Shown: positions 4,666-5,556 of the stretch, piece by piece
How positions within the stretch are numbered: position 1 is the stretch's first letter
Layout of the letters: the number at the start of each line of letters is the position of its first letter
From: an uncultured Ruminococcus sp.
GTDB taxonomy: Bacteria; Bacillota; Clostridia; UBA1212
DNA: 33,784 nucleotides
NCBI GenBank assembly: GCA_902782645.1
Contig: CACZNV010000122.1
Location: forward strand, 1 to 33,784
Direction of reading: 5' to 3'
Made by a program: the position numbers and the translations under genes
Notes under the pieces: generated by a model
The model's input: the letters and a program-made list of their open reading frames with translations, nothing else
Databases searched by the model: none
What the model was told of the DNA's origin: nothing

Positions 4666-4704
4666 ATATAGGGAAAAACAACAAATTTGACAAAAACAGA
4701 AAAA

Positions 4705-4743
4705 CCGGGGCGCGCCAATAGAACAACGCGCCCCGGCCTTTTT
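4705..4743 (+). terminator. Bidirectional terminator between rnj and the lipoprotein gene
   Basis: A 10-bp GC-rich stem, CCGGGGCGCG (4705-4714) with CGCGCCCCGG (4727-4736), has a 12-base loop and is followed by a T-run. An A-rich stretch lies on the other side, so it can also stop the opposing transcript. A CGCCAAT word runs from the stem into the loop (4713-4719). Confidence 0.85.
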
Positions 4744-4788: not shown

Positions 4789-5253
4789 TCAGGAGAAAGA
4801 CTCCGCGGCAAATTTGTAGACCGTACCCTCTGTAACGGGTGTTGAATCAACACCGGTGCTAGCGTATTCGCCGTTAATGTAAAGTGCCCAATAGTAACCG
4901 TCCGCGGCATAGTCAAGCTTAACGCCGTCAACGGTGTCAACCATAAGACCGTAATCGCCGACTTCTCCGGAGATAAGTTTCTCGTCGAGAAGAGCTTCAC
5001 CGAGCATTTTCTTTGATGTCTTCAAATCAAATGTTTTTTCGGTGCCGTCCTTGCCTACAACCACAAACGTGAAAGAAACCTTGGTCTCTTCCGGTGCAGC
5101 TGTGGCTTGTTCTTCCGGTGCAGCAGTGGCTTTTGTGTCAGGCTCTTTACTTTCATTCTTGCAACCAGCCAGGCAGGCAACTGAAACCGCAGTCAGTATG
5201 ATGCAAAGCATAATTACAAGAAAAGACAACTTATTTGATCTTTCTTTTCTCAT
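4789..5253 (-). CDS. Cobalamin-riboswitch-controlled lipoprotein with DUF4430-like domain
   Basis: The 154-residue product starts with a basic head, a long hydrophobic segment and the lipobox LAGC with Cys31, so it should be a membrane-anchored lipoprotein. An Ala/Thr/Pro/Glu-rich linker follows (about 40-60). The C-terminal part of about 90 residues ends in a YYWALYINGEYASTGV stretch and a VTEGTVYKF strand, which resembles DUF4430, the fold related to the cobalamin-binding C-terminal domain of transcobalamin and intrinsic factor. The frame is open to 5400, but AGGAG at 5267-5263 sits 8 bases before the ATG at 5253 and the upstream part is riboswitch RNA. The riboswitch suggests a role in capturing B12 or a B12-like compound. 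The family call is from memory of the motif; the ligand is inference. Confidence 0.8.
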   Translation of the reverse strand: MRKERSNKLSFLVIMLCIILTAVSVACLAGCKNESKEPDTKATAAPEEQATAAPEETKVSFTFVVVGKDGTEKTFDLKTSKKMLGEALLDEKLISGEVGDYGLMVDTVDGVKLDYAADGYYWALYINGEYASTGVDSTPVTEGTVYKFAAESFS

Positions 5254-5262
5254 AAGCATCAC

Positions 5263-5267
5263 TCCTT
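5263..5267 (-). promoter_or_regulatory. Ribosome binding site that decides the lipoprotein start
   Basis: AGGAG on the minus strand is 8 bases from the ATG at 5253 but only 3 from the in-frame ATG at 5259, so 5253 is preferred. It is the only strong site downstream of the riboswitch. Confidence 0.7.
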
Positions 5268-5339
5268 TACAAAATAATAAGGTACTCCCCTTGCCGGCGC
5301 CCGCAGCATCGCAAAAAACGCGAACGGGAAGTTTTTTCA

Positions 5340-5500
5340 TGTATTCGGGTATTTCGACTGCGGCGGACAACTCTCCGGCCTTCTCAGCAGAAACCGCCAA
5401 TGACCTGTGCCCGGATCTGCGGAATCCGGTTGGAGAGATGCTTTGTAAAACCGCCTCACGGCGACGGGCTCGTTCGGGAGTTTCACCCGATTCCCCTCAC
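5340..5500 (-). ncRNA. Cobalamin riboswitch (B12 aptamer)
   Basis: Read on the minus strand, the transcript carries GGGTGAAACTCCC, then GAACGAGCCCG (together 5488-5465) and the block CCGTCGCCGTGAGG. These match the conserved 5' half of cobalamin aptamers (GGTGnAA-TCC ... CCCGnCnCnGTnA). Further on, GAGAAGGCCGGAGAG (about 5388-5374) corresponds to the B12-box region, although its 3' part departs from the usual consensus. The RNA begins a few bases after a good promoter and ends about 90 bases before the lipoprotein start. That stretch holds a T6 run and the ribosome site; I could not settle whether control is by termination or translation. A CATTGGCG word lies inside the aptamer at 5402-5395. 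Confidence 0.85.
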
Positions 5501-5509
5501 ACGCACGCG

Positions 5510-5538
5510 ATTATACCAAAACGCCCCCGCCAGTTCAA
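5510..5538 (-). promoter_or_regulatory. Promoter of the riboswitch-lipoprotein transcript
   Basis: TTGAAC (5538-5533) and TATAAT (5515-5510) are spaced by 17 bases on the minus strand, with an extended -10 TGG. The -35 element lies in the loop of the upstream trmB terminator hairpin. Confidence 0.75.
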
Positions 5539-5556
5539 ATGAAACGGGGGCGTTTT
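5518..5556 (-). terminator. Terminator of the lon-trmB gene run
   Basis: A 9-bp stem, ACGCCCCCG (5521-5529) with CGGGGGCGT (5545-5553), is flanked by A and T tracts, so it can act in either direction. It lies just after the trmB stop codon. In the minus direction the T-run is only TTTT before GG. Confidence 0.75.

Follow-up and report, generated by a model that had tools for sequence, protein, structure and literature searches.

In the stretch of DNA analysed here (33,784 nucleotides from an uncultured Ruminococcus sp., referred to below as the window) a DUF4430 lipoprotein is encoded on its own, behind its own promoter and a cobalamin riboswitch. Almost all relatives keep the lipoprotein gene and the S gene of an importer side by side, whereas in the genus of the window the two are split. 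Given the evidence presented below, we consider it likely that the lipoprotein captures cobalamin at the cell surface and hands it over to a CbrT-type importer encoded on contig 157 of the same genome, the riboswitch lowering its expression at high B12.

A lipoprotein gene on its own, flanked by trmB and RNase J

The lipoprotein locus is a one-gene unit, flanked by the genes for TrmB and RNase J (Table 1). Read along the minus strand, trmB is followed by an inverted repeat with a T-tract, the promoter, the aptamer, a hairpin, the Shine-Dalgarno sequence, the lipoprotein gene and a terminator-like hairpin. No transporter or cobalamin biosynthesis gene was found beside the lipoprotein gene, and the isolated combination of promoter, B12 aptamer and DUF4430 lipoprotein gene that had been proposed by an earlier, sequence-only reading of this DNA was confirmed.

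The promoter is embedded within the inverted repeat at the end of the gene before it (window 5519-5554), with the -35 element in the loop of the repeat behind trmB and the -10 element just past its T-tract. Considering that 1.6 such sites are expected by chance per 1.8 kb in the promoter scan, the position of the promoter weighs more than its score. The repeat itself was not returned by the terminator scan, as its loop exceeds the length that the scan allows. The sequence AAAGGAGTGATGCTTATG at the Shine-Dalgarno element recurs in L118 and L119, and L120 has a close variant of it.

Table 1. Features of the lipoprotein locus (window positions).
Feature	Position	Strand	Basis or remark
Promoter TTGAAC-17-TATAAT, extended -10 TGGTATAAT	5510..5538	-	-35 TTGAAC, 17-nt spacer; promoter scan
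Probable trmB terminator, ACGCCCCCG...CGGGGGCGT then TTTT	5519..5554	-	Read from the sequence; overlaps the promoter
Cobalamin riboswitch aptamer as transcribed	~5340..5503	-	RF00174; pairs conserved through changes on both sides across 32 leaders
Hairpin 3' of the aptamer, loop GCGGGCGCC	5293..5307	-	Conservation of loop and stem in 32 leaders
Shine-Dalgarno sequence AAAGGAG	5262..5268	-	8 nt ahead of the ATG; sequence
DUF4430 lipoprotein P0001, 154 aa	4789..5253	-	ATG at 5253, stop at 4791-4789
DUF4430/transcobalamin-beta-type domain, Pfam span	4819..4968	-	PF14478; structured domain reaches ~5085; Foldseek matches to 3u7z and transcobalamin beta domain
Terminator-like hairpin 3' of the lipoprotein gene, 18 pairs, T-rich tail	4700..4741	-	Terminator scan

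The cobalamin riboswitch

The aptamer had initially been read from the letters alone, with a covariance-model search as the proposed check. The Rfam model RF00174 matched positions 5529-5327 of the minus strand with 39.5 bits (E 8.8e-7), which is above the gathering score of 31.5 bits, and this leader was the sole match in the assembly (2.15 Mb, 96% complete). Both the core GGGAA..GGTG and the GYCATTGG box are present. The modest score is partly explained by the fact that the Rfam alignment runs upstream into promoter DNA: TATAAT lies inside the aligned span and the 5' strand of P1 in the alignment falls in part on DNA ahead of the probable start site, and the actual P1 begins at ~5503. When 32 related leaders were aligned, 30 of the 45 consensus pairs showed at least one pair-keeping change on both sides, including pairs of P1 and of the downstream hairpin. 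Folding of the leader as a single sequence yielded a z of -1.6, which is not significant.

Among the same 32 leaders the loop of the downstream hairpin (GCGRGYGCC) is nearly invariant and its stem displays both-side changes. By analogy with known B12 riboswitches, this loop is the probable L13, the kissing partner of the aptamer loop L5. The pyrimidine-rich 5' arm of the hairpin could base-pair either within the hairpin, to the 3' arm, or with the Shine-Dalgarno sequence, and the lipoprotein is likely controlled at the level of translation. Known B12 riboswitches are mostly off-switches, and from this likeness we infer that expression of the lipoprotein would be lowered at high B12.

It had been remarked that the 3' half of the B12 box deviates from the consensus and includes an octamer word. 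The letters indeed differ, as the box reads GTCATTGG where the consensus has GCCACTG, but all 32 leaders share CATTG without exception and nearly all have a G after it, so that this 'deviation' is a trait of the subgroup and normal within it. Similarly, the overlap between the box and the octamer CATTGGCG is real, but six of the letters of the octamer are those of the conserved box, and the overlap looks like a coincidence. The octamer occurs 36 times in the 33.8-kb window, on both strands (e.g. at 89, 1601, 2519, 5395 and 5740), and CCTTGGCG is likewise frequent (23 times). On other contigs of this genome, and also in L026, the octamer was counted ~6-10 times per 10 kb; other species of the genus have fewer copies or lack it altogether (L027: 0), making it a species-level repeat.

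The lipoprotein and its fold

The lipoprotein comprises a signal peptide, a lipobox LAGC (Cys31), a low-complexity linker and a domain that spans residues ~57-152. The DUF4430 model (PF14478) matched with 30.1 bits against a cut-off of 23.8, covering profile positions 16-65 of 72, and the AlphaFold model has a pLDDT of ~97 over residues 60-150. A Foldseek comparison with the PDB returned 3u7z as the top match, followed by 17 chains that were all haptocorrin, intrinsic factor or transcobalamin (E 8e-7 to 2.5e-5). Among these chains was the beta domain of transcobalamin, both with B12 and without it (5np4 and 5no0; in 5np4 the domain stands by itself with cyanocobalamin), and the Foldseek TM-score of 5np4 on the target was 0.70. 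The next match was to ubiquitin-like proteins at 8e-3, so that only 3u7z and the B12 carriers were found at E<0.001. The likeness to transcobalamin is one of fold (10-19% identity): a sequence profile of the lipoprotein matched 3u7z alone in the PDB, and structure was needed to make the transcobalamin link. The suspicion that the C-terminal domain is DUF4430-like with a transcobalamin fold thus held, with Pfam, the predicted structure and Foldseek in agreement.

With 154 aa and no alpha/alpha barrel, the protein lacks the architecture of a whole transcobalamin or intrinsic factor. A BtuF-type substrate-binding protein was ruled out, as DUF4430 was the only domain found (not Peripla_BP_2) and FecCD is absent from the genus. 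The isolated beta domain of human transcobalamin binds cobalamin (PMC5599065) and, judging from the structural model, the lipoprotein would bind B12 as well.

Gene order in relatives

A scan of GTDB genomes yielded 353 relatives, the best 80 of which were studied, 5 from the genus of the window and 75 from outside. Within these best 80, a gene for a CbrT-type ECF S-component lay directly downstream of the lipoprotein gene at 72 of the 75 loci outside the genus, starting within ~20 nt of the lipoprotein stop and in a few cases overlapping it. Two of the three exceptions are situated at most 620 nt from a contig end. A B12 riboswitch was found upstream of the lipoprotein gene in 67 of the 73 relatives among the best 80 that had enough upstream sequence, in 56 on basis of the core motif within 650 nt (background: 1.2% of random windows) and in 11 of the remaining 17 on basis of RF00174. 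In L152 a group II intron (278-418) is located just upstream of the lipoprotein gene, at the expected riboswitch site.

Within the family of nine genomes DUF4430 is present in all nine and the B12 riboswitch in eight, one each; all are directly upstream of a DUF4430 gene and one scores below gathering. In genomes drawn from across the order, three layouts can be discerned. Layout A consists of a riboswitch, a short lipoprotein and a small membrane protein (G002, G003, G012, G013, G015 and G016, and G017 without Rfam match). Layout B consists of a long DUF4430 protein, EcfT, a fused EcfAA and an S-component (G009 and G021 with a riboswitch, G001 without Rfam match). Finally, in layout C the lipoprotein stands alone (the genus of the window and G027). 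In same-order genomes that lack DUF4430, the riboswitch precedes BtuF-BtuCD-type genes (L072-L074).

In layout B the long proteins (G001, G009, G021) combine an alpha/alpha toroid with DUF4430, as in intrinsic factor, in a model of modest quality (mean pLDDT 68). In L023, L062 and L070 the protein encoded beside the ECF genes has a toroid, a likely transmembrane helix and a C-terminal DUF4430 domain and resembles a whole transcobalamin/intrinsic factor, which were also the best PDB matches (E 1.7e-8). Toroid-DUF4430 proteins were furthermore observed upstream of a pheS/pheT-like pair in G019 and G020, and neither a riboswitch nor adjacent ECF genes were found at these two loci (L068, L069). 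In G007 (L029 9232-10041) two tandem DUF4430 domains lie in one frame with a single in-frame stop between them, representing a duplication with a truncated second copy.

A candidate importer in an apparent B12 auxotroph

None of the six genomes from the genus of the window has the linked S gene at the lipoprotein locus, and no homologue of the small linked-type S-component (A2) was found in the genus. The same six genomes encode an EcfT-EcfAA-S operon near recA. In the window's own genome (G000) this operon, comprising EcfT, a fused EcfAA and a CbrT-like S-component, is found on contig 157 at ~19.7-22.6 kb; in G007 its S gene was recovered by tblastn (L110 3028-3720, 56% identity). The contig-157 S-component is 43-46% identical to the S proteins of layout B, whose operons also encode DUF4430 proteins. 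A profile of the layout-B S proteins, including that of contig 157 (A1), matched 6fnp_A (CbrT) in the PDB with E 8.3e-15 and, more weakly, 4hzu_S, another ECF S-component (2.4e-4). The profile of the small linked S (A2) matched one solved chain only, again 6fnp_A (E 1.4e-7); Pfam and NCBIfam do not recognise this protein and its identity derives from the PDB profile search. CbrT is a B12 S-component for which transport has been shown experimentally (PMC5997447). The transporter 'encoded elsewhere' that had been envisaged earlier therefore has a good candidate in the contig-157 operon, given that its S profile is closest to CbrT (6fnp). No riboswitch was found at this operon.

The lipoprotein could also feed another S-component, one that uses a shared housekeeping ECF module, as there are at least five further S-component-like matches in the genome and a second EcfAAT module (L115). 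We regard this as distinctly unlikely: no homologue of the linked-type S was found in the genus, and the S-component of contig 157, the one whose profile was compared with CbrT, shows a relationship both to CbrT and to the DUF4430-linked operons.

The window's own genome was searched family by family. The presence of MetH and of a corrinoid methyltransferase set (a corrinoid protein with RACo and a URO-D-type protein) indicates a need for B12. No FecCD (the BtuC-type permease) was found in the seven family genomes that do not belong to genus g3, namely those of genus g1 and G001, and cobB had no match above cut-off in nine genomes. With neither BtuC nor cobB found and MetH present, the source bacterium, a member of the rumen Clostridia, appears from its gene content to be a B12 auxotroph, in which one riboswitch and DUF4430 protein and one CbrT-type operon are found in separate places. 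This gene content also bears on the identity of the ligand, which could be cobinamide, another cobamide or cobalt and not B12 itself. CbrT moves cobinamide as well as B12 (PMC5997447) and 3u7z was deposited as a putative metal-binding protein, but such a ligand seems improbable, as cobalt and early precursors would be unusable for de novo synthesis without cobB.

Proposed function and possible change of partner

We propose that the lipoprotein, anchored to the cell surface by its lipid, would capture cobalamin or a cobamide precursor via its isolated transcobalamin-type beta domain. The captured cobalamin would then be handed to the ECF importer, and we infer that the receiving S-component is the CbrT-type protein of contig 157. 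At high internal B12 the riboswitch would lower the expression of the lipoprotein, and when B12 is scarce more of the capture protein would be made.

Several observations speak against capture. ECF S-components bind their substrate directly and can in principle do without a separate capture protein, the riboswitch is found on the lipoprotein gene only and not at the transporter operon, the likeness to transcobalamin is confined to the fold, and transcobalamin binds tightly with two domains, whereas the lipoprotein has one. In addition, the pairing of lipoprotein and operon in the genus is based on absence at the locus and presence elsewhere, in draft genomes. The lipoprotein might then be an accessory in B12 import that does not bind B12 but helps to position or stabilise either the S-component or the ECF complex. 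This would agree with its almost constant place next to an S gene in relatives and with the ability of S-components to bind substrate without a soluble partner (PMC5997447). Nevertheless, we consider it unlikely, since the fold is shared with the B12-binding transcobalamin beta domain and since a partner of fixed stoichiometry is expected to be co-regulated with the transporter, while in this genus the riboswitch is present at the lipoprotein gene alone.

Could the orphan gene be a relic, no longer needed after its S-component partner was lost? The S gene that comes next in other genera is indeed absent here, and in G007 the second tandem domain is cut off by the in-frame stop (L029). Nevertheless, the gene is intact in the window, in G004-G006 and in G008, one complete domain remains in G007, and both the riboswitch core and the CbrT-type operon are kept in six of six genomes. 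Moreover, the dN/dS of 0.12-0.35 within the genus (synonymous sites being near saturation in some pairs) argues against decay of the gene, and a relic is highly improbable.

Returning to capture and hand-over, the origin of the present pair can be approached via a tree of DUF4430 domains. The window protein groups with the lipoproteins of layout A and not with the proteins of layout B, a placement to be read with caution given the very long branch between the types; its nearest neighbours outside the genus (L124 and L139) both have a linked S gene. Since the operon of the genus is of layout B, the grouping suggests that the present pair combines a type-A lipoprotein with a type-B transporter. 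More specifically, and with doubt slightly prevailing, the lipoprotein may have lost its small CbrT-like partner and may now work with a different CbrT-type operon, itself devoid of the usual large DUF4430 protein, B12 regulating only the capture protein. If true, this would imply that ECF import uses an exchangeable, separately regulated extracellular cobalamin-binding subunit.

Comparison with known systems

ECF importers are described with a membrane S-component as the substrate-binding protein, and a soluble one is not needed. The widespread occurrence of a riboswitch-controlled lipoprotein of the transcobalamin type next to B12 S-components, with 353 relatives found in a single scan, suggests that a capture step is frequent in B12 ECF import, a step that would be related in fold to the human B12 carriers. 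In this way a function is offered for DUF4430 and for structure 3u7z. The family is annotated by prediction only in the literature that could be read openly, and no biochemical test of such lipoproteins (cobalamin binding, role in uptake) was found in the open-access literature; the one-gene locus makes the capture idea easy to test.

The kind of protein is already known by prediction. Burroughs et al. 2007 (PMC1796856) described a bacterial transcobalamin-like clade of SLBB domains, in connection with the loss of B12 synthesis and with CbiO/CbiQ-type operons, and predicted a role in B12 scavenging. Like that clade, the lipoprotein is a secreted beta-grasp domain of the transcobalamin type in an apparent B12 auxotroph. 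Unlike it, the lipoprotein consists of one domain, without alpha/alpha toroid and without linked transporter; lipoproteins and riboswitches are not mentioned in the 2007 paper.

Among the proteins listed in a proteomics study of Lactobacillus (PMC9963975) is an 'additional lipoprotein component of putative cobalamin ECF transporter'. The study also discusses a DUF4430 protein encoded near rtpR, and we take the two to be the same protein. The lipoprotein resembles this component in being a small DUF4430 lipoprotein, there tied by annotation to a CbrT-type ECF importer, and differs from it in forming a one-gene unit that has a B12 riboswitch to itself and no CbrT gene nearby. Of the features of such a component, the lipobox LAGC and PF14478 are present; the link with a CbrT-type S gene is absent at this locus and at the other loci of the genus, is present in 72 of the 75 relatives outside it, and has a counterpart in the CbrT-type operon elsewhere in the same genome. 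Possibly, cbrS of L. delbrueckii (PMC5997447) encodes the same kind of lipoprotein component.

The predicted fold is shared with the beta domain of human transcobalamin (5no0/5np4), but the identity is low (13%) and the window protein is lipid-anchored and lacks the alpha domain. The closest solved relative is RUMGNA_00854 of Ruminococcus gnavus (3u7z; sequence E 3.5e-18, TM-score on target 0.95), a DUF4430 protein deposited as a putative metal-binding protein, for which no established ligand role was found in the openly readable literature. With BtuF-BtuCD, used by the DUF4430-lacking members of the same order (L072-L074), the lipoprotein has in common that B12 capture is controlled by a riboswitch, but the fold of BtuF is unrelated and the genus of the window has no FecCD protein. 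What is new with respect to these systems is that the two genes lie apart, that the transporter partner has apparently changed and that the riboswitch controls the capture protein only.
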